A DNA stretch of 64,000 nt, taken from assembly GCA_028554795.2 (NCBI GenBank), contig CM068827.1:138266268-138330267 (forward strand). Direction: 5' to 3'. The position numbers and the translations under genes were made by a program. The notes under the pieces are model-generated. The model did no database searches and was not told the DNA's origin. It saw nothing but the letters and a program-made list of their open reading frames with translations. The DNA is from Sinohyriopsis cumingii. Lineage: Eukaryota; Mollusca; Bivalvia; Unionida; Unionidae. Shown in pieces: positions 12,701 to 61,069 of this stretch (positions are counted from its first letter, which is position 1; each line of letters opens with the position of its first letter).

Positions 12701-15700
12701 GGTTATTGGTTCCGTAATAACTCAATAAAAAAAATCTTACCGAATTTTTATATCAACCGGTTAAATTATGTACACTAGGCAGACAGTTTTCTGCTATCAC
12801 CATGATAATGTCCTCCGCATCACAAATAAGTACGCACTAACTGTGGTCGGCGTTTTCAGGAGGTACAAAGATGCCGATCGGCTGACCCACTAGAAGATCA
12901 CATAGATCACCAATATTTTGATCCAAATCTACAAACAGTAATCTATAAAACGGCTTTCCATGCTTTTATGCGTCCTGTGGGCCTTGCGGCCTCTGGTGGG
13001 GGACTTGAGGTTAAGTGTGTTCTAGAGAGGAAATGCCCCTTACAATTTTTCTCCCCTGGGGTTGTAGGCTAAATTAGGGATATCGTAAATATCGGTATAT
13101 TACCCCCTCTCCCATCTGCTTCTGGACTTGAACAACTGTAAATGTTAGGTAGAATATTAGGTCTAAACTTCTTGCATAAAACCCTTATGGATACTTAGCT
13201 TGTACTTACGGATATTGTCTGGAAATTGTTCTGACGGCGGTAGCATTCCCTGCCCGACCACCCCGTAGACATTCTCGGCAGAGGGGATCCCATACATCTG
13301 AGCAACCGTTACAAGGGGGATACTGCCAATGGTCACCTCCATCGGTACGTAAAGGTCAAATGATGGACCCGATGGGTCCACAATAATCTGAAATAAAATG
13401 ATTTGCCACATGAAAATTTGCGCGCACAGTTTTCAGCTGCTACGTGAACGAACTATATTGATCTCATGGCCAGCGTCATCAGATATATATTCTATCTGAC
13501 AGCTATCGATATTTTCAAACATTGACCTTAACATTTTGTATTTTTCCCCAGTGGTATGTAGAATCTCCTCTTCGTAGTGAAACATTGCATGGAACATATG
13601 AATGACCCATTTTTTTAAATGTGAAATGTGTTTCTTCCATTTGTCACTTTGCAATTGGAACATAAGTTATAATTTTGATCATCACCATAATGGATATAAC
13701 AGAATATTTAGATCAGTCGAATTTTAGATAGTACGAATACAATAGCAATGTTCTTAAAAACATATCGTGATATTGTATGAGTTTTCATAAATTCTTCTTG
13801 TTTTTGTTTGTAATCACTGCGGTTATTCAGCACCGTCCCTGGGTAGTATGTCAAGGAAGATAAACAAGCACATAAAAGTACAATGATATCATGTGCAACA
13901 TGATGATACTAATCGACGATAAATATTGCTCTCATAGGCTAACTACAAAGTAATGATAGTCTCATTGGAGTGTATTATTAAGCAGTTAGTAGATTTGTAC
14001 TTAGATGGTAAATCATATACTTATTGGTAGGGTTAGGGTTAAGGCAAATCATATACTTACTGGTAAACACGACGAATTTTTGTTAGGATCAAGCTCATGC
14101 CAACAAAATGTTTTGACCTATGTCAGTATTAAGATAGTTTGTCGATGACCTGTCAGTAGTGAAAGGGGATACCGTAGCCTCAATGGGAATTAACATTACA
14201 GACCCCACCCCCCCGGGACACTATAGCCTCAATGGAAATTTAACATGGAGAAAAATCGTGGGACCATATAGCCTCAAGGGAATTTAACATGGAGAAAAAT
14301 TGTGGGACCATATAGCCTCAAGGGAATTTAACATGGAGAAAAGGGGGACTGTATAGCGTCAAAAGGAATTTAAACAGGGTGGGACTGTATAGCGTCAAGG
14401 GAAATTGAACATGGGATTTTTTTTTTAAATTTTTTTTTAAAAAAGGGGTAGGCAATCGAAGGTCATTCTCTTTTCGAGAAATGTGGGTGGCCTGAAAAGG
14501 GCCTTTGGTTTTCTTCTGCTTCTAATTTCTTCTTTTTCTCCACCAACTTCTTATTTTCTCTCCTACACTCTTTCTCTTCTTTTCTTTCTTTTTTTTTCTC
14601 CTCCTCTTCTTTCTTCTTCTCCTCCTCTTCTTTCTTCCTCTTCTCATTTTCTTCTTCTTTTTCAATTTTTTCATTCCATTCTCTTATCCTTATCCTTTCC
14701 TCTTCATCCTCCTTCTCCTCCTTTATTTCTTTCATCACACCACTTATCATGTCCTTTGCTTTTCTTAAGTTATTAATCTCCATCTTTACTCGATGGGGAC
14801 TATAGGAATAGTGGTCTTCATTTAGTCTCACTAGCATTTGTTCCATCATGCCCAAATTGTCTAGGACGTCTTGCAATGTTTGCATTTTATTCAGGTGGTT
14901 TGAAGCCATCTTCTCTGTAGAATGGTTTGAACGACGAATACTGTGGGTTGTTATACGAAAAGCGCGGATGTGATGGAAAACATCCCCCTAAGACATAAAA
15001 TTGATCTTGCTTAGATCATGACCAAACAACGCGCGGACGTGAAGGAAAACATCCCCTACTTTTCTCATTTCATATGATCTACTATCCACATACGTGAACC
15101 ATCAATAAAGAAACCCCAAATCTACTATTTACACACGCAAATCATTATAACTAAATCCATAATCTACTATCCACACAATCGTACGTGAGCGTTTACAAAA
15201 CCCGAACTATACTCTCCACATACGCTAAGAAACAATAAACAAACCCATAATCTACTATTCACACAAACGTACGTGAGCGCTTACAAACACAAACACACAA
15301 ACACATACCCTCACACAAAAAAGAGTCAGTGTTTATATTCACACTACTCTACCTACACACATTGGCAAATTGATGGCTATTTCTTTTCTAGAGTATTGGG
15401 TAGCCCTTAAAAGGGCTGCTTGTTTTTGAACTCCAGATGCACCTATCTAATGTTGGCACCTTCCTGGCCTGGCACCACACACGCATCTTCTACTCCAATC
15501 TTTCCAGTTGACTTGTTTGACTGGGAGCGCAGAGGGAGGATGATTAGCTTCATCACCCCAATCCTCTGTCTCTGGTATCTTGTAAGCCATCCTCTCTCCT
15601 ATTTTCTTTTCCTCCTCTTCCCTCTGTCTTCTCTCCTCCTCTTCCTTCTTTATTCTTTCCTCTTCTACTATAGCCTCCGCGGCCAGTTCATTTAACAGGC

Positions 15701-18700
15701 GCCTGACATATTCCAGATGCATCTGGAGTTCAAGAAGTTTGCTTATTCTGGTATTCATTCTGGTGTTGATCAATCAACAAGGGTAGCTAGACTGCCCAGC
15801 GAATTTCAATTTATAGTGAAAGCGCGGACGTGAAGGAAAACATCCCCCTAAAAACATAAAATTGATCTTACCTAGATCATAATCAAAACAACGCGCGGAC
15901 CTAAAAGAAACACTCACTCACTTTTTTATACTGCCCATTACTATTCTAAAAAATTTTCATTAATCACTTCAATATACTATTCACATACGCAAAGCAATCC
16001 AATCAAACCCCCAAATCTACTCTCCCCACACCTCTAACAACAAAAAAGACATGATCTTAATCTACTATCCACACCAACGTACGTTAGCACTTACTAACAC
16101 ACAATCTTATACACAAACACATACACTCACACTATAAAAAAGAGTTAGTGTTTATATTCACACTACTCTACCTACACACATTGGCAAATTGATGGTTATT
16201 TCTTTTCTAGAGTATTGGGTAGCCCTGAGAAGGGCTGTTTTTTGTTTGCTATGGCAATCGTTTAGTTTCTAAGAATGCGTCGTCCTCTGAGGATAGACTT
16301 TCTGACGATAGGTCTGCTTCTTCGGAAAGAGAAGAAGAACTCTTTGGTGTCGATACGACAATCGACAAAGCCTCTGTCAGGTTCAGGTTCCTGCTGCTGC
16401 TGCTGTTGTTGTTGTTGTTGTTGCTGTTGCTGTTGCTGCTGTCTCTGAAGTCTGTACTTCTCTGTCCATTCTTCTTTCTCCCTGTTCACTTCTTCTCTGA
16501 AGAGCTCTTCTATCAGGTCTTTAGTGACTTTTAGCATTCTCACATTCTCTATCTCTTCAGCTTTCGGTATCAGACTGTGTCTGACCCTATGCAAATTCAC
16601 GTAGGCTTCGTTTAGCTTAGCTAGTCTGGAGCACATCTTCGTAGGAGGATGAGTCGACAATGGATGGTTAGACTGGAAAACTGCCCCGGTTCTTAAAGTC
16701 AAAGCGCGGACGTGAAGGAAAACATCCCTCCACGATTTTCGAGCCGGAACGTTCAATGAGTGACATGAGAGAGATAGAGAGAAGTCAAAGAGCATGAATC
16801 CACATTCTTATAGCCAAACAAAAGACAAAGACATTTTTTTTTTAAAACACAAAATTTTTTATTCAAAATCACTTAACACTAACCAACAACAACTCCAACA
16901 TTTTTAACAATAATCCAACATTATAACATCAAACATTTTTTTCAAATCACAAACATTTTTTCAATTTACAGTCTACTTTAAACAGGGCTGACAACATTGT
17001 GAATGAAATTGTGATTTCCACTGTTGGAAGTCATTAGGCCATTGATGGACACTACGTTTCCTAGTTAGAGACAAAAGATAAGCATAATGGTCACAGAACC
17101 ATCTATCTGCTTTCACATCGTTTCTAGAAGAAGAACGAGGATCAAAATGAGTCACTAAATGTTCTAAGGAATAGCCCAGGCTGCGATGATGCAGAAAATA
17201 CACACAATATTGTCCACACACCAAGGAATCTGTGCCTTGTAATTTCACATTATTGAATCGGGTGGTCTGAGCATTTCTTCTCATAAAGTCGATGATATCG
17301 TCTTCCAAAGGGGGCAATCCATACGAATCAAAATATTCCACACATCCTTCTTGAGGAAAGTAGACGGCTACCCAGTGGGTTCCTGGGAGATGACTTTCGT
17401 CCGTGTTGATCACATAAGCTAGATGGTTTTGAGGTTTGCGATGAGGGAGTTCATCTTTTGCACAGACGACAGGATTCCAAGAAGACGTATACGAACTGTG
17501 GTTCAAAAGGTAAAAAAGTTCCCAGGTATCCATTGATTTGTGTGTTTTTTCTTCTTCTTCACAGGTAATAATATGTCATCAATTCGATCCTGATTTTTGC
17601 TTGAAAATGTCTGACAAATAACCGTTTCTTCGTTTCGTCTCCTCACTTTGATTCAGGAGAGCTTCGATACGATGGATCTCTTGAGTGGTTAATGGTGGAC
17701 AAGAATGTTCACGCAAGTCTTTATACTACTGGTGAAACACGTATTCGTCCGAGATGAGACACCAAGCCTCGTCCAGATACTCGTCCAATTTTTCTTCTTG
17801 ACTCAACATCAGGCATTTATCGTGTTGAATTTGACTGGGATGATCGTTTTGACATCCATAGCAATTTTTCTTGATCAATTCCGTCATTTTTTCGACCAAG
17901 TGTTTGGCAAAACAGGAGACTAAATGGGCTTCTTGTTCTGGCCATCTTGACTTCATCATGATCACTTCTTCCACAGTCTCCTCACATTTCATCTTTAAGT
18001 TTCTCCACTAGGTAAAGAGGGATAACAGTCTTCCATGGCTTCTAATAGTCTAGAATGACTTCTCTCAAACTGTTGATTTCTATCGTATTGTCAAATTCTG
18101 CATACAGGATGACGTTCACCGTCTCAGTTAGAGCTTCTGCAAACTGAAGTTCCACACGAATCTGACCAGATTTTATAGGGTGGAAATGTCCCTCGTCGCT
18201 GCCTTGGTCTGGAGTGAAATCAAAAGCCCACAAAGCATAGCCTCCTGCATAATCCTCGTACGTAATACCGTGAGTGGTGTTGGTTCCTAACTGCCCCGTG
18301 GCTTCGTACAGGGACAAGTACGACCTCAAGTAATTCTTCTTCTCAAAGTCAGGTTCGAAAGGTCGGGTACACAAGGTTTTGCCATCGCGACTGACTTCAA
18401 TCTTGGACACTTTGTAATGTTTAAACTCAAAAGGATTTTGATCGTGGTATCCGTTGAAGGCTCTATTCTCGACCATACCAAGGATTAAACGTTTAGGTTA
18501 CTGCCCTTGGAACAGATGATCTTCGATCATGGATCGCTGTCCAGCAGGAATGGTGAAGGTTTTCACTTCCACGCGTCGTACGGGATACTTGGCAGTCGTT
18601 CTGCTCAACGTCTGACTAATGTCGTTTCCCACTTTAAGTAACACTTACACACGACGTATGTAGAGTCTGGCTTCTTGGATGATGGTTTTGTAATTGTCAC

Positions 18701-21700
18701 TATCAGCCACTAAATGGAAAGTGACGCTGCTACGATTCAGTCTCAGGCGAACATTCACCCCGTTCAGCAAATACTTTCCTTGCAACCAAATGTCCAAATG
18801 CAAACGATCCATCAGTTCTAAACTCTGGCCATTTTTGATTTTGTCTCTTCGTTCTACAAATCCCTCACTGTAGTCTTTTTTGTATCAATTTCCAATTTGT
18901 CAAACTCGCCTGCATCGTCAGCTTCCCATAACACAGAAGCATTGAGATGAGTGTTTTTGGCGTCTATTCCGTACGTCAAGAGATTTTCCAGGTAGCCACG
19001 GTAAGGGTAAGTATCCATGCTGCTACTGACTAGTTTGTTATTCAAGTACAAGTCCACTCAGCTAAACAAGGAATGCATGAAATTGTTGACGGGAGCTACT
19101 GCTTCATCGGCTACTGGCTCGTCATCTATTACACCGCCTGTTTTATCAAGAACTTTGACTTTCAGGTACAAGTAACTGCTGTTCAAATCGATGTAATCTT
19201 CGGGCTGACCTTTGATTTCAAACTCGATGGGAGCGGAATCCGTCAAAGAGGAGACAGGGTGAAATTCCACCCATTGGGATTCTTCCATGGTCATCATAGT
19301 GGGTGGCATGGCAAACAGATCCAGTTCCGACTTGGAACAGGCGCAAGACTCTCGGTGCATCATTTTTTTGTGTCTCAATAATCGAAAACGTCTAAGTCTC
19401 GAACGGTTTTTCTTTTCTTTGAATTTCTAGCTTTAGACGTGTGAAGTCTGGTGAAAGGGTGTTTTCTTCGTCGTCTCTTTCTGCCTTGTCCTTGCTGAAT
19501 GCCTGACTCGGTAGCGTGCAGGGCATTTATAGGTGTTTCTCGTCGGCTCAAAAGGTCTTTGCCGGTTTGCAACAAGACATTTTTGCCTGCCCTCAAGAAG
19601 GCTCCTTTAGGGTTTTGTTTGTCGATGATGACATTTTGGAGAAATTCTTTGCCGTGTGTCAATGCCGCATCTTTCAAGGCGTGCAATCCGCGTGTCACCA
19701 TTGGTTTCAAGATTGGGGCCACCGAACGAAAGGCTGATTTTAACATATCTCCTAAACCGTGTCCTCGCTGTCGTGCAACCCCTCGGTACACTGGATACAT
19801 GACTTACGAGTCGTGAGAGAATCGTTTTCGAAAATGGAGTTTCACTGTGACTTTCCCTTTGGTGAATGGAATATTTTGTCCCAGATCTCCTTTTATAGCA
19901 ATGTTGACCGTGTCCAAATAAGATTTGCTGACGGGCAAATAGTGAGGATGTACAAATTCGCGGTGGACGTGATAAGTGTTTCCACCTTCCTCGTCAGCGA
20001 GCGTGGCAGAATCCACTTTGAAAGGAATGACACGCAGTAACGGCACGGAGGTGTTCCTCACCATGTTGTACTCCACCACATCGGAGTACACAAACATCAA
20101 ATTCAGTTCTTGGATCAGTTCTACTGGGGTACGAAAGAACTTGCTAAACGAATCGTTGTCGGAAATGACTGGCAATTCGTTTTTCTTCATCATGGCCATC
20201 CTCATGTCCATGTCCCCGCCCAACATGTCAAACAATTCAGGGCAAAATAAGAAAGACAACATTTTGTGCCCCTCAGGAAATTTCATCAGGAAGCGACGAG
20301 CTACTTTGTGGTGCTCCAGGGTGACACTTTTTCTGACACTCTCCAAAGCTTTCAGAAACACGACATTAAACCTAGAACTTATGGTGCTGACCAAATGTTG
20401 ACCACTAAAATAATAGCCTGGGGGAATGATCAAGCGATAGGTTGTCTTTTGAGTTTCTGGGTTATATATTTTGTGATCATATTTGACGTGGGTATTCAAG
20501 TACTGTTGCATTTGCTCGTCATGAACTTCCACTGAAAAAAGATTTTGATTGGGAAGGACATTGAGGACTTCAGTCGGGTGAATGATTTCTACCAAAGCCA
20601 CTTCACAATGGGCTTCGTGATGTATTGGGATGGCCTGAGGTAATTTGGCCGTGTAACAGCACAACGTGTTATTGGGAAACACCTCCATGGAACTGTCACT
20701 GGGTAAGGTTAAGTAAAATTGGTTAGTGTGACTCATAATTCCAGAGTTCTGTGGCTGTCCGAGGGGTTACTGGACGTCAGAGGCGTGTCTCCGCCCAAAA
20801 TGGGGTTGTTGTTCTTGTTGTTTAAGTGGTGACTGGCACTGGCACTGGACACAAGGTTCCCGTGGTTCCCGTTCGAGGAGAATTTCAAGAAGGGATTAGG
20901 AAGCAGGTAACCGATGCAACTGCTCAATAAAATGGTCCACAATTGTTGCAAACTCAAATTGGCAATGGCTGCACCGATGACACAATACACCACGAAGATT
21001 TGGCAGAAAAAGACGATTTGCGTTTTAGGCACACGTTCTCCACACCACACCCACAAGGGTTGTTTTTGTAAATCTTGCAGAGAAGAACTAGGTGAAGGAG
21101 TGGTCGACGTAGCTGCGTCTGTGTGAAAGGACATGATGGTCACTTCTTTTTATAGTCGATGACTTGCGAAGCGTCGATCCAAGAATCAAAACTGGGTGGA
21201 TATCCTTTCCAACGTACTTTGACTTCTTTGACACGTCGTTTGCCCACTTTACGGGTTCTGCGTTCGAGAATGCTTTCGATGTCGTAAACGTCGTCTTCTT
21301 TTTTGGTGACACGTTGTAACTCGGGCAAATAAAACGTTCCTTTGAGTACTTCTCCGTTCATGTCTTCCAATTTATAGACGGCAGGATGACGGCCATGCAC
21401 TCGTCCAGTGACACAAAACAATTCGGTCGTCCAGTTAGGTAAGTAACCTTTGTCGAAAGTGCGTTTGGTTTTGCCAATGCGCACATAATCTCCTACGGTC
21501 AACTCTCCACTTTTCTTGGGGACAGCCCTCGTCGGGGACGTACCAAACAGGCGCTCAAACAGCAGTACTTCGTTGTCGGGAGTCACCTCTTGCGGGGCAC
21601 GTCCGATGCTTCGATGGTAAGATTGGTTGTACGCTTGCACCAGGTGCGGTAAGATGTCGATGTACTTCAGAGTGTGGTGATGCGTAAAATATTTCCACAT

Positions 21701-47920: not shown

Positions 47921-47952
47921 TTCATTGTGACTACCAAGACCAAGTGAACAAG

Positions 47953-48593: not shown

Positions 48594-48615
48594 AGTAACT
48601 TACCATAATCTGTTT

Positions 48616-49071
48616 ATGGATACTTTACAAGAGAACGCTCGCACTTTACCTGTGTAGTTGAGAGAAAGGATTTACCGAGAGTTGGTCAAAATACAAGTGA
48701 AACGTGAAGAAAAATTGCATCCGTTACGTCACCAGATGTTTAATCACTGGTACCTGAATACTATAAAAGGACTGACTCAGTTGAAAGTGTTCCATTGGAC
48801 AGACATTGATCAACAACCCCCTGGTTTTAAAAAGGATTGGTTTGCTATTGATGATTCTATCTACTACAATGTAAACTTACTGCATCGAATTCCAGAGGAA
48901 GAGTTAACCAATTACCGACATCTTTTACACAATGTCAACCTAGTGAAAGAAGAAACTTCTGAACGAATTGTAATGTGTAAATTAGTGACTAAACGATTTA
49001 AATTTGACACTGAAGTAAAACCATGTCTGTGCAAACGGTACATTTCTTCTGTCAGACAAAAGAGGATTTAG
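48616..49071 (+). pseudogene. Element B: F-box-like protein 1, fossil
   Basis: Counterpart of 26449-26904 (RIYRELVKIQVKREEKLHPL, FHWTDIDQQPPGFKKDW). Broken. In tandem with 49084-49602. Confidence 0.6.
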
Positions 49072-49083
49072 TATGACCTGTTT

Positions 49084-50257: not shown

Positions 50258-50264
50258 AACATTC

Positions 50265-50270
50265 AATAAA
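50265..50270 (+). terminator. Element B: poly(A) signal after the tail-anchored gene
   Basis: AATAAA 8 bp after the end of the gene, conserved in A. Confidence 0.55.
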
Positions 50271-50340
50271 CGTGTCCTGAAAAAAGTATATAAACTCTTG
50301 TCTTGTTTGTTTTCGTGTCACAAGTGACATTCCTAACACT

Positions 50341-51059
50341 ATGGCTACTTCTGCTCCCTCTTCCTCAACTGTCAAAGTCATCGACGAACACTTAGATCGT
50401 GCCACTTCGGAGGCTTTGTATCTTCGCCATCCCTTTAACATGCTCATTGCTGGACCTAGCGGTTCAGGCAAAACCGAATTTGTCAAACGTTTGATCGAAC
50501 ATAAACATCATTTGATCGATCGTCCACCCCAACGCATCATGTAGTGTTACAAAGAGTGGCAATCGGCGTACAGTCTCTTGCGAGAAAGTCAAGGCGATTC
50601 CATCGTGTTTGTGGAAGGCATTCCTAAAGAAGACGATGACATCATCTCTGACTCCCGTCAAACCCATTTGGTCATTTTTGGCGACATGTTAGGAGAAGAC
50701 GAAGAAGAAATTAAACTGTGGTTCACGCGCAAAGGGCATCATCGTAATGCCAGTGTCGTTTACATCACTCAAAATTTGTTTCAACAAAGTAAAGCAAATC
50801 GCATCATCAGTCTCAATGCGCATTACGTGGTCTTGTTTAAAAGCCCTCGAGATAAATCGCAAGTGCAAGTCTTAGCCAAACAGTTAGGAACGCTTTGGCT
50901 GAGTCAGGCGTACGACGATGTCACTCACACTCCACACGCCTATTTACTCGTCGATTTGAAACCTACGACCCCGATGATTTGCTATTTCGTACCCACTTGT
51001 TTCACCACTGGGGTCAAGACGGAGGGCCTGTCCTGTACACGTCTCCGTCTTCGACTTAA
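50341..51059 (+). pseudogene. ATP: Element B: packaging ATPase, fossil
   Basis: Counterpart of 24437-25165 with Walker A GPSGSGKT and the VVYITQNLFQQ region. Broken. Confidence 0.88.
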
Positions 51060-51122
51060 CTTCACTCAAAAAAAATCTATAAAAACCTCAGACAGTTTTC
51101 GTCTGTCTCACACAGTGTCAAC

Positions 51123-52118
51123 ATGACGTCCCTTCAATCATATCTTCCCGTATAATTGATTCGTGCCTTGTATGGCATCAGTCGAGAAAAAAATCCACAA
51201 ATACGAGCTCGTGTCTTAGAAGCTAGTCTCAAAGAAGTCTTACGATGGTTCACGGTGACAGCACGTCAATTACTCCAAGGAATCATTCAGATTCCTCATC
51301 AAACCAAACGCTTTTTCGATCGAAACAAAGTCGCTTTGACCCAACTGGCCGATCCCCGCATCGACACTCAAACCAAAAAACAAATCATTTTGAAACCTGG
51401 AGGGAGCGGTACTCTAGGAGGGGTCATCATTCGCTCTCTCCTAAGATGGGATCCTAATGCTCCCAAAGTTCTCCCCAAAAAAAAAGAAGTCAAACGAAGA
51501 TCCAAGAAAAAGAAAAAGAAAAAGACCAGGTCCCCAAAGAGACCCGTGTCTCCCAGAACTTCTCCAGTGGCGGGACCTTCCTCTTACCAGACACCACCCA
51601 GGAAAAAGAAAAGCCCCCAGAAAAAGAAACAGGGAAAAAGTACCCAGAAAAAGAAAAGTCCACAGAAGAAAACTAGTCGCAAGAGAGGTACTTCAGCCAG
51701 GACGCAACCTTACACTCGCAAACCACGACCTGCAACGGCGGTGACCGCGTCTCCGGTAGCCTCAGGTTCAGTCACTTCTCCGATGATGTCACCAAGAACT
51801 GAACAGTACTTGGAGACGCTGATCACACCAAGAACTTCTCCGTTGATGACCCCAAGAATTTTCCCAGTGGCAGGACCCTCCCATTTAACGTCAGTGGCTG
51901 CGGCACACAAAGTACCTGCTCCCAAAATCAAAGTCCAAGAAAGATCGGGCATGTTACAAAGTTTGCTGGATTTGTCCAAGCAAGAACTGGCTCGATTTAG
52001 TCCGTTACGTACCCCTACACGACGTGTCATGCCTGTGATCAAGTTGATAGCCGTAAAGACAATCAGTGGCTGCGAGTTCCAGTATAAAAAAGGCCTGGAC
52101 CAAGTAGGGTATCAGTGA
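51123..52118 (+). pseudogene. Element B: Lys/Arg/Ser/Pro-rich core protein, fossil
   Basis: Counterpart of 23429-24375: the N-terminal domain with ALYGISRE and KPGGSGTLGGVIIRS, then KKKSPQKK and SP-M(M/T)-(S/T)PRT repeats. Repeat copy number differs from A. Broken. Confidence 0.6.
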
Positions 52119-52129
52119 ACTTCCAAAAG

Positions 52130-52318
52130 ATGTCACCTCCAAGAAGTCAAAAAAGAAAGAGACAAAGGCATACTCGTCATCCGAGAAAGCGCTTAGCCAA
52201 GCATCGACGTTACCCTAAGAAAAGACACAGTCGTTCCAAGAAAAAGAGGCGTCACCAAAGGGGAGGATACCTTGGCGATTTTGGAAAAAACGTTGTCTCC
52301 TTTATGACCAAGCGATAG
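52130..52318 (+). CDS. Element B: very basic small peptide, about 62 aa, absent from A
   Basis: MSPPRSQKRKRQRHTRHPRK, then RLAKHRRYPKKRHSRSKKKR and HQRGGYLGDFGKNVVSFMTK. About half of the residues are Lys, Arg or His, followed by an R-G-G site and a short apolar end. It resembles a protamine or adenovirus mu/pX-type core peptide with a protease site. The ATG at 52130 is the first in frame. Element A goes straight from the core gene to the pX-like gene. Both genes start M-S-P, so it may be a diverged duplicate of the pX start. Confidence 0.55.
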   Translation: MSPPRSQKRKRQRHTRHPRKRLAKHRRYPKKRHSRSKKKRRHQRGGYLGDFGKNVVSFMTKR

Positions 52319-52404
52319 TCCCCCCAAAAAAAGATAAAAGGGCGTGTGTTAAGTCATCGATGTTAGTGTCTGTTTGGTGAATGTCCCGGAACCCACAAGC
52401 AAAG

Positions 52405-52806
52405 ATGTCCCCCTCCAGAAAACATTCCTCTTCTAAACCCCATGGAAATAAAAGGAAATGACTGCCTCCACGTTTAGTCAAAAATGGGGACATGTTATCT
52501 GTCCTGTCCAAAGCTTCTCCACCCCTACGAAAAAAACTCATTCAAACGGCCTCCAAAGAGGTCATCGATACCGTGTGCGAATGTTGTTTGAACGTCTTGA
52601 AAGGCACGATCCCTTTGTCCAAACACCAGAAACAATGCTTAGGCAAACATCGTCACGTTCTTCGCCAAATGGTTCAAAAGAAAATTCCCCTTCGTCAAAA
52701 AAAGAAGATGTTGGTCCAACGTGGAGGAATTTTACCCCTCTTGCTAGGTCCCTTACTGAAAGGAGTCTTGGGAACCGTGTTGGGAGGACTGATGGGAGCA
52801 AGATAA
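52405..52806 (+). pseudogene. Element B: pX-like virion protein, fossil
   Basis: Counterpart of 22966-23370: KEVIDTVCECCLNVLKGTIP and LVQRGGILPLLLGPLLKGVL. Broken near its start; most of it is open. Confidence 0.72.
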
Positions 52807-52854
52807 AAAGGCCCTCTGGAGTCCCAAGATCTCAGAATCGACCTCTGACATCCC

Positions 52855-53555
52855 ATGGAAGGACGAAAATTAGCTTTAGTGCCTTACAAACGATGGATGG
52901 AATACCATCGTTGGCAAGAACAACGCACCCCGCATTTACCTCCCAATCCCAATTTGAACGAGATGTCCCAGTTACAACACGAATTGCAGTCCTTAATGGA
53001 TCGCCAAGATTTGTCCGAAACAGAAAAATCGCAAAGTACGGTCAACTCTTGCAACGACTGCAACTCTTTCACCAAAAAGCTTTAGACGAAACAGCTCTTC
53101 CCACTCTGAAAGATTTTAAGACCTTGATGAAAAGTCCATCCCCCACACCATCACCACTACCACCACCACTGCTACCATCCCCAAAGGTCACCAGAGATGC
53201 TACCCCACGAAGGTCTGAGGAAGAAGAGATACGAGAACTGTTTCAAACACCGTCAGCAGCTCCTATGTCTAGTAAGATTGCAGCATCCTTGTTGACCCCG
53301 TCCCCCACACCCCAACGAGAAGAAATGAAAGCTTGGGTTAAAAAGATGGTGTCCACTCCTCCTTCGACAGAAGTAAAAAACAAAGAAGGGAAACCAGAAG
53401 TGAAAAAAGAAAAGAAGACCAAAGCCATTCCATTGGCACCTCCACCACTACCTTCGACTTCTACTCCCGTAGCCCATCGGACACGTAAACACGTTTCCAA
53501 ACCAAACTTTCGTCCCACCCAAAGTAACATCACCGAAGAGTGGGTGACTTATTAA
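52855..53555 (+). pseudogene. Element B: LVPYxRW-type Pro/Ser-rich protein, fossil
   Basis: Starts MEGRKLALVPYKRWMEYHRW. The same helix as in A follows, then a Pro/Thr/Ser/Lys-rich linker quite different in detail from A and a C end EEWVTY. The linker is the fastest-changing coding segment between A and B. Broken. Confidence 0.55.
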
Positions 53556-53571
53556 CACATACACACACAAA

Positions 53572-54681
53572 ATGGAGAAGGTGTTAGCCAGCATTTACTA
53601 CGATCCCTCCCATCCTGCAGGTTACGCAGGAGTACAAAAATTGTATCGTGCTGCCAAAACTCGACTGAAAAGTCTCCGTTTACCTCAAGTGCAACGATGG
53701 TTACAAGAACAAGCTACCTACACTTTACACAAACCCATTCGACGCAAGTTCGCCAGAAGTCGCACCCGAGTGGAAGGCATTGATCATCAATGGCAAGCCG
53801 ATTTAGCCGATGTCTCTCATTTGGCCAGCTACAATCGTGGCTACAAATATTTGTTTTGTGTCATCGACGTCTTTTCCAAATTTGCCTGGGTCGTGCCCTT
53901 GACTTCCAAATCGAGCAGCGAGTTAGTACGAGCCCTGCAACGGGTGTTGAAACAAAGCGGTCGTCACCCTCTTCGATGGCAAACGGACAAAGGCACCGAA
54001 TTTCTGAATCAAGTTTTCCAAAAAGAATTAAAGAAACGTGACATTCATTTTTTTACCACCGAGAATCCTGAAACCAAAGCCAGCATCGTGGAACGTTTTC
54101 AACGCACTCTGAAAGAACGCATGTGGAAATATTTTACGCATCACCACACTCTCAAGTACATCGACATCTTACCGTACCTGGTGCAAGCGTACAACCAATC
54201 TTACCATCGAAGCATTGGACGTGCCCCGCAAGAGGTGACCCCTGACAACGAAGTGTTGGTATTTGAGCGCCTGTTTGGTACGTCCCCGACGAGGGCTGTC
54301 CCCAAGAAAAGTGGAGTGTTAACCGTAGGAGATTGGGTGTGCATTGGCAAAACCAAACGCACTTTCGACAAAGGTTACTTACCTAACTGGACTACCGAAT
54401 TGTTTCGTGTCACTGGACGAGTGCATGGCCGTCATCCTGCCGTCTATAAATTGGAAGACATCGACGGAGAAGTGTTAAAAGGAACGTTTTATTTGCCCGA
54501 GTTACAACGTGTCACCAAAAAAGAAGACGACGTGTACGACATCGAAAGCATTCTCGAACGCAGAACCCGTAAAGTGGGCAAACGACGTGTCAAAGAAGTC
54601 AAAGTACGTTGGAAAGGATATCCACCCAGTTTTGATTCTTGGATCGACGCTTCGCAAGTCATCGACTATAAAAAGAAGTGA
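53572..54681 (+). CDS. INT: Element B: integrase with chromodomain, 369 aa
   Basis: RVE-type DDE integrase: first Asp in HQWQADLADVSHL (residue 77), second in RWQTDKGTEF (139), Glu in KASIVERFQRTLKER (174), the last two about 34 residues apart. C-terminal chromodomain (about 322-365) with YDIESILERRTRKVG and VKVRWKGYPPSFDSWIDA. Such chromodomains may guide insertion to marked chromatin. The gene lies between the LVPYxRW and membrane-protein genes. Looks whole. Confidence 0.93.
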   Translation: MEKVLASIYYDPSHPAGYAGVQKLYRAAKTRLKSLRLPQVQRWLQEQATYTLHKPIRRKFARSRTRVEGIDHQWQADLADVSHLASYNRGYKYLFCVIDVFSKFAWVVPLTSKSSSELVRALQRVLKQSGRHPLRWQTDKGTEFLNQVFQKELKKRDIHFFTTENPETKASIVERFQRTLKERMWKYFTHHHTLKYIDILPYLVQAYNQSYHRSIGRAPQEVTPDNEVLVFERLFGTSPTRAVPKKSGVLTVGDWVCIGKTKRTFDKGYLPNWTTELFRVTGRVHGRHPAVYKLEDIDGEVLKGTFYLPELQRVTKKEDDVYDIESILERRTRKVGKRRVKEVKVRWKGYPPSFDSWIDASQVIDYKKK

Positions 54682-54686
54682 CCATC

Positions 54687-55097
54687 ATGCCCTTTCACAC
54701 AGACGCAGCTACGTCGACCACTCCTTCACCTAGTTCTTCTCTGCAAGATTTACAAAAACAACCCTTGTGGGTGTGGTGTGGAGAACGTGTACCTAAAAGG
54801 CAAATCGTCTTTTTCTGTCAAATCTTCGTGGTGTATTGCGTCATCGTGGCAGCCATTGCCAATTTGAGTTTGCAACAAGGAGACAAACAATTGTGGACCA
54901 TTTTATTGAACAGTTGCATCGGTTACCCGCTTCCTAATCCCTCCCTGAAATTCACCTCGAACGGGAACAACGGGAACCTTGTGTCCAGCGCCAGTGCCAG
55001 TCACCACTCCAACAACAACAACAATCCAATTTTGAGCGGAGACACGCCTCTGACGTCCAGTAAACCCTCGGACAGCCACAGAACTCTGGAATTATGA
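54687..55097 (+). CDS. Element B: two-segment membrane protein, about 136 aa
   Basis: Counterpart of 20733-21134: IVFFCQIFVVYCVIVAAIAN, LWTILLNSCIGYPLPNPSLK, then Ser/Asn-rich tail. Overlaps the start of the penton fossil. The first in-frame ATG is at 54687. Whole frame, unknown role. Confidence 0.75.
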   Translation: MPFHTDAATSTTPSPSSSLQDLQKQPLWVWCGERVPKRQIVFFCQIFVVYCVIVAAIANLSLQQGDKQLWTILLNSCIGYPLPNPSLKFTSNGNNGNLVSSASASHHSNNNNNPILSGDTPLTSSKPSDSHRTLEL

Positions 55098-55767
55098 GTC
55101 ACTAAAACCAATTTTACTTAACCTTACCTAGCGACAGTTCTATGGAGGTGTTTCCCAACAACACGTTGTGCTGTTACACAGCCAAATTACCTCAACCCAT
55201 CCCATTAGATCACGAAGCCCATTGGGAAGTGGCTTTGGTAGAAATCATTCACCCAACCCAAGTCCTCAATGTCCTTCCCAATCAAATTTTTTTTTCAGTG
55301 GAAGTTCATGACCAACAAATGCGAGAGTACTTGGATAAGCAAGGCAAAAATCTCATAAAAAACCCTATCGCAAAGAACAACAAAAAGGCGAATCAGCAGT
55401 CATTTTCGACAACAAAAATTTTGCCAAGTATTTTCGTACCCCGGTAGAATTGAACGAAGGACTGAATTTGATGTTTGTGTATTCCGATGTGGTGGAGTAT
55501 AACGTGGTGGGACACACCTCCGTGCCATTACTGCGTGTCATTCCTTTCAAAGTGGATTCTGTCACGGCCGCTGACGAGGAAGGTGGAAACACTTATCACG
55601 TACACCGCGAATTTGTACATCCTCATTATTTGCCTGTCAGCAAGTCGTATTTGGACACGGTCAACATTGCTATAAAAGGAGATCTGGGACAAAATATTCC
55701 ATTCACCAAAGGAAAAGTCACGGTGAAACTCCATTTTCGAAAACGGTTCTCTCACGATTCGTTAAGT
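55094..55767 (+). pseudogene. Element B: penton-like minor capsid protein, fossil
   Basis: Counterpart of 19804-20736: MEVFPNNTLCCYTAKLPQPI near the start and KGKVTVKLHFRKRF at the end. Shorter than the A copy and broken. Confidence 0.8.
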
Positions 55768-55768
55768 C

Positions 55769-56194
55769 ATGTATCCAGTGTACCGAGGGGTTGCACGACA
55801 GCGAGGACACGGTTTAGGAGATATGTTAAAATCAGCCTTTCGTTCGGTGGCCCCAGTCTTGAAACCGATAGTGACACGCGGATTGCACGCCTTGAAAGAT
55901 GCGGCATTGACACACGGCAAAGAATTTCTCCAAAATGTCATCATCGACAAACAAAACCCTAAAGAAGCTTTCTTGAGGGCAGGCAAAAATGTCTTGCTGC
56001 AAACGGGTAAAGACCTTTTGGGTCGACGAGAAACACCTATAAATGCCCTGCACGCTAGCGAGTCAAGCATTCAGCAAGGACAAGGCAGAAAGAGACGACG
56101 AAGAAAACACCCTTTCACCAGACTTCACACTTCTAAAGCAAGAAAGACTAAGAAAAGAAGAACCGTTCGAGACTTAGACGTTTTCGATTATTGA
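55769..56194 (+). CDS. Element B: pVI-like minor virion protein, 141 aa
   Basis: MYPVYRGVARQRGHGLGDML start, KSAFRSVAPVLKP, basic C-terminal half GRKRRRRKHPF, end VRDLDVFDY. Almost identical to 19375-19800. Whole frame. Confidence 0.75.
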   Translation: MYPVYRGVARQRGHGLGDMLKSAFRSVAPVLKPIVTRGLHALKDAALTHGKEFLQNVIIDKQNPKEAFLRAGKNVLLQTGKDLLGRRETPINALHASESSIQQGQGRKRRRRKHPFTRLHTSKARKTKKRRTVRDLDVFDY

Positions 56195-56210
56195 AAAAAA
56201 ACAGAAAAAA

Positions 56211-57533
56211 ATGATGCACCGAGGGTCTTGCGCTTGTTCCAAGTCGGAACTGGATCTGTTTGCCATGCCACCCACCATGATGACAATGCAAGAATCCCAA
56301 TGGGTGGAATTTCATCCCGTCTCCTCTTTGACGGATTCTGCTCCCATCGAGTTTGAAATCAAAGGACAGCCCGAAGATTACATCGATCTGAATAGCAGTT
56401 ACCTGTATTTGAAAGTGAAAGTGTTCGAACCACCCAACACTAACCTAGACGCTGAGGATGTAGTAGCTCCCGTCAATAATTTCATGCATTCCTTGTTCAG
56501 CGAAGTGGATTTGTACTTGAATAACAAACTGGTCAGCAGCAGCATGGATACTTACCCTTATCGAGCCTACCTGGAAAATCTCTTGACGTATGGAAAAGAA
56601 GCCAAGAACACTCATCTGGATGCTTGTGTGGTATGGAAACCTGACAAAGCGTCTAAGTTCGACAGCATTACAGTTGCTGGGGATGCTACAAATTCAACGG
56701 GGTTTGTAGAACGAAGAAAGAAAATTGCACTAAGTCGTAGTTTAGAACTGATGGATCGCTTGCATTTAGACATGTGGTTGCAAGAAAAGTATTTGCTGAA
56801 CGGAGTGGATATCCGCCTGAGACTGAATCGCAGCAGTGCCGCTTTCCATTTGATAGCTGCTCATGATGCCACTTACAAAACCAAAATCGAAGAAGCCAGA
56901 CTCTACGTGCGTCGTGTGGAAGTGTTGCCTAAAGTGGGAAACGACATCAGTCAGATGTTGAGTAGAACGACCTCCAAGTATCCCATACGACGTGTGGAAG
57001 TGAAAACGTTCACCATTCCTGCTGGACAGCGATCCATGATCGAAGATCATCTGTTCCAAGGACAGTTACCCAAACGTTTGATTGTTGGTATCGTCAAGAA
57101 TTCAGCCTTTAACGGAGCTTACCAAGAAAACCCTTTCAACTTTCAACACTACAAAGTGTCCAAAATCGAAGTCAGTCGCGATGACAAGGCCTTGTGTACC
57201 AGACCTTTTGAACCTGACTTTGTTAACGCAAAGAATTACTTGAGGTCGTACTTGTCTCTGTACGAAGCCACCGGACAGTTAGGAACCAACACCAGTCACG
57301 GTATTACGCACGAAGATTATCCAGAAGGCTACGCTTTGTGGGCTTTTGATTTCACTCCAGACCAAGGCAGCGACGAGGGACATTTCCACCCTATAAAATC
57401 AGGCCAGATTCGTGTGGAAATTCAGTTTGTGGGTACACTGGAAGTAGGGCACACAGTGAACGTCATCCTGTATGCAGAATTTAATAATACGATAGAAATC
57501 AACAGTTTGAGAGAAGTCATTCTAGATTATTAG
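56211..57533 (+). CDS. MCP: Element B: major capsid protein (double jelly-roll), 440 aa
   Basis: N terminus with CACSKSELDLFAMPP; ESQWVEFHPVSSLTDSAPIE; EDYIDLNSSYLYLKVKV; FSEVDLYLNNKLVSSSMDTY with PYRAYLENLLTYG; the middle YVRRVEVLPKVGND and RRVEVKTFTIPAGQRS; then KNYLRSYLSLYEATGQ and YALWAFDFTPDQG. This is the typical Polinton hexon-like capsid pattern. Length is slightly short of the common 450-700 range. Downstream of pVI-like and upstream of the small Cys gene, in usual order. Looks whole. Confidence 0.92.
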   Translation: MMHRGSCACSKSELDLFAMPPTMMTMQESQWVEFHPVSSLTDSAPIEFEIKGQPEDYIDLNSSYLYLKVKVFEPPNTNLDAEDVVAPVNNFMHSLFSEVDLYLNNKLVSSSMDTYPYRAYLENLLTYGKEAKNTHLDACVVWKPDKASKFDSITVAGDATNSTGFVERRKKIALSRSLELMDRLHLDMWLQEKYLLNGVDIRLRLNRSSAAFHLIAAHDATYKTKIEEARLYVRRVEVLPKVGNDISQMLSRTTSKYPIRRVEVKTFTIPAGQRSMIEDHLFQGQLPKRLIVGIVKNSAFNGAYQENPFNFQHYKVSKIEVSRDDKALCTRPFEPDFVNAKNYLRSYLSLYEATGQLGTNTSHGITHEDYPEGYALWAFDFTPDQGSDEGHFHPIKSGQIRVEIQFVGTLEVGHTVNVILYAEFNNTIEINSLREVILDY

Positions 57534-57538
57534 AAGCT

Positions 57539-58018
57539 ATGGAAGACTGTTATCCCTCTTTACCTTGTGAAGAAACTTTGGACATGAAATGTGAGGAGAC
57601 CGTAGAAGAATCCCAAGACAAAGACGAAGAAGTTGTCATGATAAAGTCGAGATGGCCAGAACAAGAAGCCCATTTAGTCTCCTGTTTTGCCAAACACTTG
57701 GTCGAAAAAATGACGGAATTGATCAAGAAAAATTGCTATGGATGTCAAAATGATCATCCCAGTCAAATTCAACACGATAAATGCCTAATGCTGAGTCAAG
57801 AAGAAAAATTGGACGAGTATCTGGACGAAGCTTGGAGTCTCATTTCGGACGAAGACGTGTGGCACCAGTGGTATAAAGACTTGCGTGAACATTCTTGTCC
57901 ACCATTAACCACTCAAGAGATCCATCGTATCGAAGCTCTCCTGAATCAGAGTGGGGAGACGAAGCGAAGAAACGGTTATTTGTCAGACATTTTCAAGCAA
58001 AAGTCAGGATCGAATTGA
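57539..58018 (+). CDS. Element B: small CYGC-x-HPSQ protein, 159 aa
   Basis: The acidic N terminus is followed by SRWPEQEAHLVSCFAKHLVE, then CYGCQNDHPSQIQHDKCLML and EYLDEAW helices. The cluster C-x2-C-x3-H-x5-H-x2-C could hold a metal. I recall similar small proteins beside capsid genes in invertebrate Polintons. Starts 5 bp after the capsid stop. Whole frame; function unknown. Confidence 0.7.
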   Translation: MEDCYPSLPCEETLDMKCEETVEESQDKDEEVVMIKSRWPEQEAHLVSCFAKHLVEKMTELIKKNCYGCQNDHPSQIQHDKCLMLSQEEKLDEYLDEAWSLISDEDVWHQWYKDLREHSCPPLTTQEIHRIEALLNQSGETKRRNGYLSDIFKQKSGSN

Positions 58019-58064
58019 TAACTTATTACTACCTGTGAAGAAGAAGAAAAAACCCACACAAAAC

Positions 58065-58600
58065 ATGGATACCTGGGAACTTTATTACCTTTTGAACCAC
58101 AGTTCGTACACTGCTTCTTGGAATCCTGTCGTCGGTACTAAAGATGAACTCCCTCATCGCAAACCTCAAAACCATCTAGCTTATGTGATCAACACGAACG
58201 ACAGTCATCTCCCAGGAACCCACTGGGTAGCCGTCTACTTTCCTCAAGAAGGATGTGTGGAATATTTCGATTCCTATGGATTGCCTCCTTTGGAAGACGA
58301 TATCATTGACTTTATGAGAAGAAATGCTCAGACCACCCGATTCAATAATGTGAAATTAAAGGCACAGATTCCTTGGTGTGTGGACAATATTGCCTGGGCT
58401 ATTCCTTAGAACATTTAGTAACTCATTTTGATCCTCGTTCTTCTTCTAGGAACGATGTGAAAGTAGATCGATGGTTTTGTGACCAGTATGCTTATCTTTT
58501 GTCTCAAGCTAGGAAACATAGTGTCCATCAATGGCCAAATGACTTCCAACAGTGGAAATCACAATTTCATTCACAATGTTGTCAGCCCTGTCCAAAATAA
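58065..58600 (+). pseudogene. PRO: Element B: adenain-like protease, fossil
   Basis: Counterpart of 16973-17533 (GTHWVAVYFPQEGCVEYFDS, YGLPPLEDDIIDFM). Broken. Confidence 0.85.
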
Positions 58601-58934
58601 TGTGTGAATTGAAAAAAAATGTTTGGTATTTGAAAAAAATGTTTGATGTTATATTGTTTTTGATTATTGTTAAAAATGTTAGAGTTGTTTGTTAGTGTTA
58701 AGTGATTTTGAATAAAAAATGTTGTGTTTTGAAAAAAAATGCCTTTGTCTTTTGTTTTGCTACAAGAATTTTGATTCATGCGCTTTGACTTCTCTCTATC
58801 TCTCTCATGACACTCTTTAAACGTTCCGACTCGAAAACCGTGTAGGGATGTTTTCCTTCACGTCAGCGCTTTAACTTTAAGAACCGGGTAGTTTCCAATC
58901 AAACCATTCATTGTCGACTCATCCTCCTACGAAG
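58601..58934 (+). promoter_or_regulatory. Element B: protease 3' end and promoter of polyQ gene
   Basis: AATAAA at 58711-58716, then the shared upstream element GGGATGTTTTCC / TTCACGTCAGCGCT at 58845-58870, about 65 bp before the ATG. Confidence 0.55.
58711..58716 (+). terminator. Element B: poly(A) signal after the protease gene
   Basis: AATAAA, 110 bp after the protease end. Conserved in A at 16858-16863. Confidence 0.6.
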
Positions 58935-59310
58935 ATGTGCTCCAAACTAGCTAAGCTAAACGAAGCCTACGTGAATTTGCATAGGGTCAGACACAGTCTG
59001 ATACCGAAGCCAGAAGAGGTAGAGAATGTGAGAATGTTAAAAGTCACTGAAGACCTGATAGAAGAGCTCTTCAGAGAAGAAGTGAACAGGGAGAAAGAAG
59101 AATGGACAGAGAAGTACAGACTTCAGAGACAGCAGCAACAACAGCAACAACAACAACAACAATAGCAGCAGCAGCAGCATCCTGAACCTGACAGAGGCTT
59201 TGTCGATTGTCGTATCGAAACCAAAGAGTTCTTCTTCTCTTTCCGAAGAAGCAGACCTATCGTCAGAAAGTCTATCCTCAGAGGACATCGCATTCTTAGA
59301 AACCAAAAGA
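58935..59310 (+). pseudogene. Element B: polyQ coiled-coil gene, fossil
   Basis: Counterpart of 16262-16636: MCSKLAKLNEAYVNLHRVRH, acidic helix, Gln tract, basic end (FRRSRPIVRK-like reading). Broken. Confidence 0.55.
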
Positions 59311-59345
59311 TTGCCATAGCAAACAAAAAATCAAAAACAAAAAAC

Positions 59346-59361
59346 AGCCCTTTTCAGGGCT
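59346..59361 (+). terminator. Histone-type 3' stem-loop
   Basis: AAAACAGCCCT-TTTC-AGGGCT, ACCCA, then TCTAGAAAAGAAAT. About 30 nt after the end of the polyQ gene. Confidence 0.78.
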
Positions 59362-59404
59362 ACCCAATACTCTAGAAAAGAAATAACAATCGATTTGCCA
59401 ATGT

Positions 59405-59756
59405 GTGTATGTAGAGTAGTGTGAATATAAACACTGACTCTTTTTTCTTGGGTTTGTGAGTTTGTGTGTTTGTAAGCGCTCACGTACGTTTGTGTAGATA
59501 GTAGATTATTGGGTTTGATTTAATAGCTTTGCGTATGTGGATAGTATATTGAAGTGATTAATGAAAATTTTTAAATTAGTAATGGGTAGTATAAAAAAGT
59601 GAGTGAGTGTTTCTTTTAGGTCCGCGCGTTGTTTGGTCATGATCTAGATAATATCAATTTTGTCTTAGGGGATGTTTTCCTTCACGTCCGCGCTTTCACT
59701 ATAAATTAAAAATTGCTCGGCAGTCTAGCTACCTTTGTTGATTGATCAACACCAGA
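59405..59756 (+). promoter_or_regulatory. Element B: intergenic repeats and promoter of small coiled-coil gene
   Basis: GATAGTAGATTA-type repeats and GCTCACGTACGTTTG, a partial element GTCCGCGCGTTG near 59622, then the full element GGGATGTTTTCC / TTCACGTCCGCGCT at 59669-59694. ACTATAAATTAAA follows directly (TATA box at about 59700) and the ATG is at 59757. Confidence 0.65.
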
Positions 59757-60074
59757 ATGAACACCAGACTAGCGAAACTGCTTGAATTTCATGTACACCT
59801 GGAATATGCCAGGCGTATAGTGAATGAGCTGGCTGCAGAGGCCATAGTAGAAGAGGGAAGAATGTAAGAGGAGGCGAGAAGAAACAAAGAAGAGGAGGAG
59901 AGAAGAAACAAAGAAGAGGAAGAAAAGGAGAGAGGAAATTTCAGAATCCCAGAGACAGAAGATTGGGATTCTGAAGCCACTTATCCCGCCTCTGCTCTCC
60001 CCCAAAAAATAGTGAAAGGAGACTGGGGAAGAAGATGTGTGTGTGGTGCCAGGTCTGGAAGGTGCCATCATTAA
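59757..60074 (+). pseudogene. Element B: small coiled-coil gene, fossil
   Basis: Counterpart of 15447-15773 (MNTRLAKLLEFHVHLEYARR, WGRRCVCGARSGRC-like end). Broken. Confidence 0.55.
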
Positions 60075-60103
60075 CCAGGTGTCATGGAGTTCAAAAAACA
60101 AAC

Positions 60104-60119
60104 AGCCCTTTCCAGGGCT
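60104..60119 (+). terminator. Histone-type 3' stem-loop
   Basis: ACAGCCCT-TTCC-AGGGCT, ACCCA, then TCTAGAAAAGAAAT. It lies 30 nt after the stop at 60074. Confidence 0.75.
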
Positions 60120-60164
60120 ACCCAATACTCTAGAAAAGAAATAGTAATCGATTTGCCAATGTGT

Positions 60165-60408
60165 GTATAGTTTGGGTTTTGTAACCGCTCACGTACCTTT
60201 GTGTGGATAGTAGATTAGGATTTGATTTTGATGCTTGGCTTGTGTGAATGGTAGATTTTGGTTTGTTTCTTGCTACTTGGCGAATGTGGATAGTAGATAA
60301 TATGAGATAAGAAAAGTAGGGGATGTTTTCCTTCACGTCCGCGCTTTAACTATAAAACTAACAGTGTTTGCCATTGGAGCCCATTCCACGGAATAAGCAA
60401 ACAAGAAG
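60165..60408 (+). promoter_or_regulatory. Element B: intergenic repeats and promoter of terminal gene
   Basis: GGATAGTAGAT(T/A) and GCTCACGTACCTTTG repeats; GGGATGTTTTCC / TTCACGTCCGCGCT at 60320-60345; TATAAAA at 60351-60357; ATG at 60409. The element-to-TATA spacing equals that at 59669-59706. Confidence 0.65.
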
Positions 60409-61069
60409 ATGCCAGCAGCTTCAGCTTTGTATAACAGCTTTGTATAACAACCTTATGGGAAGTTGGTACTGGATGGTGGATGGATTGAATGTAGCAGATA
60501 GGCTTGAACAGGAATGGAGGCATGCAGTGACAAAAGACTTCGTCTCAAGACAAGTAACAAGCCTCCACTTAGCAATCGATGTTGTGAAAGAAATGATAGA
60601 GGATGAGGAGAAGAGAATCAGAGGTTTCATTAACCCACCGTATGTGAAAGTGGGCAAGTTGAAAGAAGCCATAGTTTATGTGACGAGTGTAAGGTGTTTT
60701 TAAGAAGACATTGTAGAATGGACAGATTGGTCTTTTGTGAAGTGGGGTTTAGACAAACTTAAGAAAACGGAAGAAGTAATGAGGAAAGTGCTGACCGAAG
60801 AGGTCAAGAACATCAAAGAAAAGTGGTCTAAGGAAAGAAAAGAAGAAGAAAATAGAAAGAAAAAGGAAGAAGTAAAGAAACTAAACGCTAACTGGATGAA
60901 AATCCAACAGAAGTTCCGAGCCATGGGTCACCCGGACTGGATACCGGAAAAAGAAAAGAAGAAGAAGAAAGGAATGATGGAAAAAATAAGGGGATGGATA
61001 AAGGAGTTAGAAGAAGAAGAAGCCCAAAGGCCCTTTTCAGGGCCACTCCAATCTCTCGAAAAGAGATAG
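60409..61069 (+). pseudogene. Element B: terminal coiled-coil gene, fossil
   Basis: Occupies the place of 14463-14909. Segments with LEQEWRHAVTKDFVSRQVTS and VRKVLTEEVKNIKEKWSKER, then a Lys/Glu coiled coil. The end runs through the stem-loop (AQRPFSGPLQSLEKR). Longer than, and only distantly like, the A gene. Broken. Confidence 0.5.
61028..61043 (+). terminator. Histone-type 3' stem-loop
   Basis: CCCAAA, GGCCCT-TTTC-AGGGCC, ACTCCA, then TCTCTCGAAAAGAGATAGAC. It overlaps the open frame of the terminal gene. Confidence 0.82.

Follow-up and report, generated by a model that had tools for sequence, protein, structure and literature searches.

Two Polintons, A and B, lie in the 64,000-nucleotide stretch of the Sinohyriopsis cumingii genome analysed here (contig CM068827.1, positions 138,266,268 to 138,330,267; hereafter the window), and each of them carries, at the ends of five small terminal genes, a sequence cassette of the kind known from replication-dependent histone mRNAs. 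The cassette consists of CCAAA, a stem of 6 bp with a loop of 4 nt, ACCCA and, from position +14 after the stem, a histone downstream element (HDE) rich in purines. From the sequence we consider it probable, at roughly 0.85, that these genes end with a complete histone 3'-processing signal and that their transcripts are processed by the host SLBP and U7 machinery without a poly(A) tail. To our knowledge, the histone 3' hairpin signal has been thought exclusive to histone genes in animals; in the present case the complete signal seems to have been recruited by a family of virus-like transposons for genes that do not encode histones.

All ten sites were matched by the Rfam family Histone3 (RF00032), with expectation values (E) from 1.4e-8 to 0.014 against all of Rfam, and the family has no other match in the 64 kb of the window at E<=5. 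Five of the ten scores (35.9 to 40.8 bits) are above the gathering score of the family, which is 34 bits, and five (24.7 to 31.0 bits) are below it, all of these with E<=0.014; individual scores are reported in Table 1. The original prediction had recognised a histone-mRNA 3' element from the letters alone, and the covariance-model search is significant at every site; the ten hairpins that it listed are all present, the last of them at 61029-61044 and not, as it was placed there, at 61028-61043. The pattern RGCCCTNNNNAGGGCY, with at most two mismatches allowed, gave 15 matches against 2.71 expected in shuffles. The sites form five homologous pairs (A/B: 14488/61029, 15402/60104, 16221/59346, 32604/43424 and 33700/42368), and the corresponding genes were named g1, g2, g3, g4 and g5 in this order. 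Since these are five homologous pairs in two similar elements, the ten hairpins are not ten independent cases.

Concerning their position, eight of the ten hairpins have a same-strand open frame that stops 19-29 nt before them, and this also holds for g4 and g5, which are neighbours in divergent orientation; it agrees with what had been claimed on distance and strand. The remaining two (14488 and 61029) belong to the left-end gene g1, whose frame reads through the hairpin in both copies. At 16 other g1-type sites read in the genome, an open frame of 38-231 codons stops 15-24 nt before the hairpin in 11 cases and not in 5, and because of these 11 the g1 frames of the window look decayed. In the alignment the 3' arm of the hairpin at 14488 is one base short, so that its stem is damaged. 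In nine of the ten sites the stem is followed by a GAAAAG starting at +14, and this is also the case at site 14488 if the end of the stem is set by the alignment.

The histone genes of the host provide the direct comparison. They form arrays whose units measure about 8.3 kb, with at least 150 scored matches, and in one unit (L083) a Histone3 hairpin of 35.0-39.4 bits closes each of the genes for H3, H4, H2B, H2A and H1, followed by GAAAAG at +14, +14, +14, +15 and +15 respectively. The host H1 has at least 120 matches; among those listed, the animal names are all of molluscs, one entry carries the label of a bacterial bin (Sedimenticola), and the closest is 97% identical, which agrees with a molluscan host. 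For the Polintons we collected 97 sites from the window and 48 loci, chosen by the hairpin pattern: (G/A)AAAAG is present at +14 in 93 of the 97, and GAAAAG at +13 to +15 in 82, where it would be expected in 0.0009 of shuffled sequences. The comparison with host 3' ends that had been proposed as a check therefore found the same hairpin, the same HDE and the same spacing. The Polinton ends share with replication-dependent histone mRNA the stem, the loop, the CCAAA and ACCCA flanks, the HDE at +14 and the position close after stops; they differ in belonging to non-histone genes within a mobile virus-like element, and in the bases after the stem, which are mostly ACCCA in Polintons and ACACA, ATACA, ACAAA or ACTTT in host histone genes. 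Recent copying of a host histone end is unlikely, given this difference after the stem. In the sites read at 48 of the loci the HDE core varies by gene, being mostly AAAGAG in g1 and g5, AAAGAG or AAAGAA in g4, and mostly AAAGAA in g2 and g3. For another bivalve, histone mRNAs with the palindrome have been described, some of them with a purine-rich element (PMC6210712).

A second block, TTGYC, was observed at +33 to +36 in 93 of the 97 Polinton sites; it was noticed post hoc and its test is informal. Starting at +34 to +36, the host H3, H4, H2B, H2A and H1 genes read CTGCC, TTGTC, TTTTG (without YC), TTTTGCC and TTGTC, so that TTGYC near +34 would seem common to Polintons and most host histone genes. 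We know of no second downstream element of this type.

The occurrence of the cassette was then considered in the whole 2.9-Gb host assembly, where 75 Histone3 hits were listed, scored from 589,472 first-look candidates. As the best-scored candidates, all 75 are above the RF00032 gathering score; host histone ends are absent from this list despite scores above the cut-off, and it gives no count of histone hairpins. We read 68 of the 75 (48 + 20), and each of these 68 sits at the end of a g1-g5 gene according to tblastn. A few extra hairpins without a nearby gene match were seen in the examined loci, for example two in L047. An equal frequency of the motif away from gene ends had been named as an argument against the prediction, and this is not the distribution of the 68 examined hits. 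No match to H2A, H2B, H3 or H4 was obtained at the 68 loci (tblastn, 1e-4; H1 not tried), which rules out real genes for these four histones near the examined hits. The list was itself selected by the hairpin, and this bias was lessened by using neighbouring g4 and g5 gene ends located by tblastn. At these ends, which are not hits themselves, a hairpin is recognisable in 16 of 16 g4 and 14 of 14 g5 genes and perfect in 24 of the 30, while 3 of the 30, with one or two stem changes outside the pattern, were recognised by eye.

The exact pattern RGCCCTTTTCAGGGCYACCCA occurs 28,695 times in the genome (14,147 + 14,548), and its reversed control pattern 0 times. Chance hairpins are ruled out by the Rfam E-values, the shuffles and this null count. 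The first 100 places include 57 A-type sites, and for 47 of these a G-type site is located on the same strand at 12.5-20 kb upstream, in accordance with the layout of the element; downstream the number is 5, and for the opposite strand it is 4. Copies of the Polinton polymerase were scored at 41 places out of 46,650 first-look candidates; they are 93-100% identical, one being the window's own, and 36 of the 41 are without internal stop. The 41 polymerase places and the 100 listed hairpin places do not overlap. From these data the Polinton family looks very abundant and fairly young, and the hairpin count suggests a copy number in the thousands.

Using a profile of 20 polymerases, we also found a distant Polinton (L004) in CALIZB010000033.1, an 8.9-kb contig of a Bacteroidia assembly in which it is probably a contamination. 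Its polymerase is 37% identical to that of the window, and it has chromo-integrase, capsid-like and protease-like frames. Near the contig end there is a C2H2 zinc-finger gene, and 28 nt beyond its stop a Histone3 hairpin that scores 35.8 bits and thus exceeds the gathering score, with AAAAAGAGA from +14 on (AAAAAG at +14). The motif after stops that was to be sought in other Polintons is thus found in this one. L004 and the window Polintons have in common a small gene located close to the end, with a hairpin behind its stop, and the +14 element; they differ in the gene concerned, a C2H2 zinc finger in L004, in the loop, there TATC, and in the polymerase. Scans of IMG/VR gave little: with the polymerase one weak match (L002), not Polinton-like; with the hairpin one match (L001), inside a phage-like open frame; and with the capsid nothing useful.

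According to the proposed mechanism, the host SLBP would bind the hairpin and the host U7 small nuclear ribonucleoprotein would pair with GAAAAG(A/G)A; the transcript would be cut after ACCCA or ACCCACA, and the resulting mRNA, lacking a poly(A) tail, would be stable and would be translated for the most part during S phase, or else in oocytes and embryos rich in SLBP. SLBP binding, cleavage, the absence of poly(A) and the S-phase or germline timing are what we infer from the cassette. For vertebrates, cleavage is described at a distance of 5 or 7 nt from the hairpin, after ACCCA or ACCCACA (PMC6303110), and pairing of U7 CUCUUU with the HDE core AAAGAG is described in PMC7026596. The hairpin and HDE of its own histone genes imply that the host has the SLBP/U7 pathway. 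No hairpin of this type occurs in the structural and replication block, and an ordinary AATAAA comes after its last gene. In A this AATAAA, with no hairpin, is found 109 nt behind the frame of the protease, which is the last gene of the block on that strand; B has a counterpart. It is here that the structural block likely ends with ordinary polyadenylation. A has 17 gene ends that lack a hairpin, that of the protease among them, and a poly(A) signal is found within 400 nt in 3; therefore the block may be read as long transcripts.

The first alternative to be considered is that the hairpin is a real SLBP site serving storage, transport or translation, and that the mRNAs are nevertheless polyadenylated further downstream. 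This would agree with the AATAAA present about 70 nt downstream of the L004 hairpin, and yet no AATAAA or ATTAAA is found on the coding strand within 300 nt downstream of any of the ten window hairpins. Moreover the HDE, which is for cleavage and not for SLBP binding, has in 93 of 97 sites a fixed spacing equal to that of the host, and we regard downstream polyadenylation as unlikely.

We also evaluated the conservation of the cassette, which bears on a second alternative. In 14 unselected g5 sites, the block formed by CCAAA and the hairpin has a pairwise identity of 0.993, which none of 198 non-overlapping 21-nt segments reaches (mean 0.736), and for the HDE the value is 0.952, the downstream mean being 0.67 and 4 of 88 segments being as high. 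In 16 g4 sites the hairpin block has 0.939, equalled or exceeded by 54 of 198 segments, and the HDE 0.934, matched by 2 of 88. If an ancestral Polinton had captured a histone 3' end that was later amplified without function, the likeness of host histone ends in hairpin and HDE would be explained, and so would a g4 hairpin conserved no better than its flanks. Against such a passive relic stand the conservation of hairpin and HDE in g5, far above coding sequence and flanks, and the presence of the same cassette behind several unrelated genes, including the different g1 proteins of A and B; the cassette is also in the distant L004, and ACCCA mostly takes the place of the host's sequences after the stem. 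In our opinion a relic of this kind is quite improbable.

The pairing of the stem was examined in 107 hairpins (75 distinct rows), which were taken from the window, from L004 and from loci of the host genome. Stem cells are paired in 97.3%, a value that 0 of 500 shuffles reaches. At the first pair 51 rows have G-C, 17 A-U and 2 G-U, and 4 are unpaired, the A-U type being mostly in g2 and g3. The second pair, which matters for SLBP, is G-C in 73 of the 74 distinct rows with letters. A role at the DNA level (replication, packaging or termination) with mere resemblance to histone ends, which might be indicated by the two of five hairpins per element that the terminal inverted repeats (TIRs) have at their inner edge, is scarcely credible, as the other three are outside the repeats, the sites are on the coding strand after genes, and the unpaired flanks CCAAA and ACCCA and the HDE match the histone element and are needless for a DNA hairpin.

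Several observations weigh against a complete, host-read histone signal in these Polintons, in addition to the L004 poly(A) signal and the g4 hairpin already mentioned. The usual stop spacing is missing at two of the ten window sites and at 5 of the 16 further g1-type sites. Two of five covariation measures, namely both-side changes and further pair types, are not above shuffles (500 of 500 as high), and the switch between G-C and A-U divides two paralogous cassette classes and may go back to one ancient event. Concerning the host factors, U7 small nuclear RNA had no match in the Rfam search, in which the controls gave none either, and a U7-like pattern gave 25 matches against 18 for its reversed control; of four such loci inspected none is convincing, although one (L110) has a foldable stretch after an Sm-like site. 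SLBP had no Pfam match in six frames, a search in which introns may split the domain and the controls again gave none. Finally, no hairpin was found in L003, a Polinton contig of 8.5 kb with a polymerase identity of 34% whose ends may be missing, nor was a histone-type hairpin found in a third virus-like element, which the window has at 4.1-8.7 kb, and therefore the feature is not universal.

The proteins encoded by the cassette genes had been described as non-histone, and this holds as far as it was followed: no histone family is among the Pfam matches of g1-g4 of A, and H2A, H2B, H3 and H4 are matched at 0 of the 68 genomic loci. The g1 of A and the g1 of B are different proteins. For g4 there are 19 homologous proteins, all from contigs of 0.9-2.3 kb. 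Judging from their composition (Glu/Lys-rich chains, the arginine-rich peptide and the zinc finger of L004), these proteins could be putative regulators, and the products may be early or regulatory proteins. The element GCGCGGAYGTGAWGGAAAACATCC has core copies at 14967, 15036, 15827 and 16709 in A and at 58864, 59688 and 60339 in B; within both elements it is confined to the vicinity of the g1-g3 5' ends, the copy at 16709 being inside the g3 frame, and this suggests a common 5' control of the left-end hairpin genes. The genes g4 and g5 diverge from one promoter region (33226-33444) with CCAAT, TGACGT and TATA. CCAAT and TGACGT are also found in the promoter of the L004 hairpin gene; in five host histone promoters TGACGT is present in 0 and CCAAT in 2.

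In a literature search with most subscription papers and bioRxiv preprints outside its scope, no report of histone-type 3' ends in Polintons was found. Polintons may in this way tie their terminal genes to the cell-division cycle of the host. It is possible to go farther and to hypothesize that animal Polintons have a two-class 3'-end programme, with poly(A) for structural and replication genes and histone-type ends for terminal regulatory genes, that expression of the terminal genes follows host replication or the germline and embryo rich in histone mRNA, and that the transcripts could compete with the histone mRNAs of the present host for SLBP and U7; on this broader proposal we see the chances as evenly balanced. 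Competition comes into question because of the 28,695 exact hairpins as against at least 150 scored histone-gene matches, and if the proposal is true the supply of histone 3'-end factors would be a battleground between host and mobile element. The life cycle of Polintons in animals is poorly known, and they would gain a testable link to S phase or germline; it would also be explained how poly(A)-selected RNA data could miss the cassette genes. The cassettes would offer a natural set of non-histone substrates from which the requirements of SLBP and U7 can be learned, including the TTGYC block near +34.

Polintons have TIRs with AG...CT ends and are flanked by a 6-bp target-site duplication. Element A has the duplication CCTGTC (14149-14154 and 34103-34108), while the 6-mers flanking B differ (GACACC and CATATT), its TIRs and ends being present. 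The main aligned pieces of A and B are mostly 89-95% identical, with one piece at 82%. As in animal Polintons/Mavericks, A and B have polymerase B, a rve-chromo integrase, an A32-like ATPase, TIRs and AG...CT ends, with the 6-bp duplication for A; they differ from them in the five terminal genes with histone-type 3' ends. The window polymerase has 983 homologs at E<=0.001. A putative capsid frame is 31% identical to that of L004 and has no Pfam match. The coordinates of cassettes, genes and elements are collected in Table 1.

Table 1. Cassettes, genes and elements of Polintons A and B, in positions of the window (aa, amino acids; ORF, open reading frame)
Feature	Position	Strand	Remarks
g1 (A) histone-type 3' cassette	14464..14508	-	27.3 bits, E 0.0015; frame runs through it
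g2 (A) cassette	15377..15422	-	29 nt after stop; AGCCCT/AGGGCT stem, loop TTTA; 28.8 bits, E 4.1e-4
g3 (A) cassette	16196..16241	-	25 nt after stop; loop TCTC; 30.1 bits, E 1.3e-4
g4 (A) cassette	32579..32624	-	27 nt after stop of 192-aa ORF; 37.3 bits
g5 (A) cassette	33695..33740	+	24 nt after stop; inner TIR edge; 40.8 bits, E 1.4e-8
g5 (B) cassette	42343..42388	-	19 nt after stop; 40.3 bits
g4 (B) cassette	43419..43464	+	25 nt after stop; 39.2 bits
g3 (B) cassette	59341..59386	+	26 nt after open-frame stop; 31.0 bits
g2 (B) cassette	60099..60145	+	29 nt after open-frame stop; loop TTCC; 24.7 bits, E 0.014
g1 (B) cassette	61024..61069	+	frame runs through it; 35.9 bits
g1 of A	14463..14909	-	148-aa frame, Glu/Lys-rich; stop beyond hairpin
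g2 of A	15447..15758	-	103 aa, Glu/Lys/Arg-rich, Cys-containing tail
g3 of A	16262..16795	-	177-aa frame with poly-Gln
g4 of A	32647..33225	-	192 aa, Glu/Lys/Gln-rich; no Pfam family above cut-off
g5 of A	33445..33675	+	76 aa, arginine-rich C-terminus; divergent from g4
Shared element GCGCGGAYGTGAWGGAAAACATCC (given for + strand)	14960..14987	-	one of seven core copies in A and B
Polinton A, whole element	14155..34102	-	starts AGTAGTG, ends CACTACT
Polinton B, inverted relative to A	41983..61342	+	termini AGTAGTGAATGGGG / CCCCACTTTACTACT
Protein-primed family-B DNA polymerase (A)	27706..31119	-	1138 codons open; PF03175 E 9.6e-42
rve integrase and chromodomain (A)	21143..22405	-	two neighbouring frames; PF00665 E 1.2e-9, PF00385 E 4.7e-8
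A32/FtsK-like packaging ATPase (A)	24440..25225	-	PF04665 E 1.6e-7
Adenain-like protease frame (A)	16976..17575	-	PF00770 14.3 bits, below cut-off 21.3

Other features of the region were also observed. Frames with a BIR (inhibitor of apoptosis) domain are inside both Polintons (26930-27715 and 48315-48590). A CCHC zinc-knuckle frame, opposite to the main block, is located between polymerase and g4 (31880-32350 and 43889-44125), the Pfam match in B being weak and under the cut-off (14.5 bits), and a similar frame is present in L007. The third virus-like element is partial and occupies window positions 4123-8738 on the minus strand; it has frames for a double-jelly-roll capsid (PF21738, E 3.4e-9), one frame without Pfam match that is protease-like by eye, and others rich in Glu and Lys. 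Tandem repeats of 30, 30 and 43 bp are located beside the elements and between them, at 37611-38690, 1162-1453 and 63186-63514 respectively.

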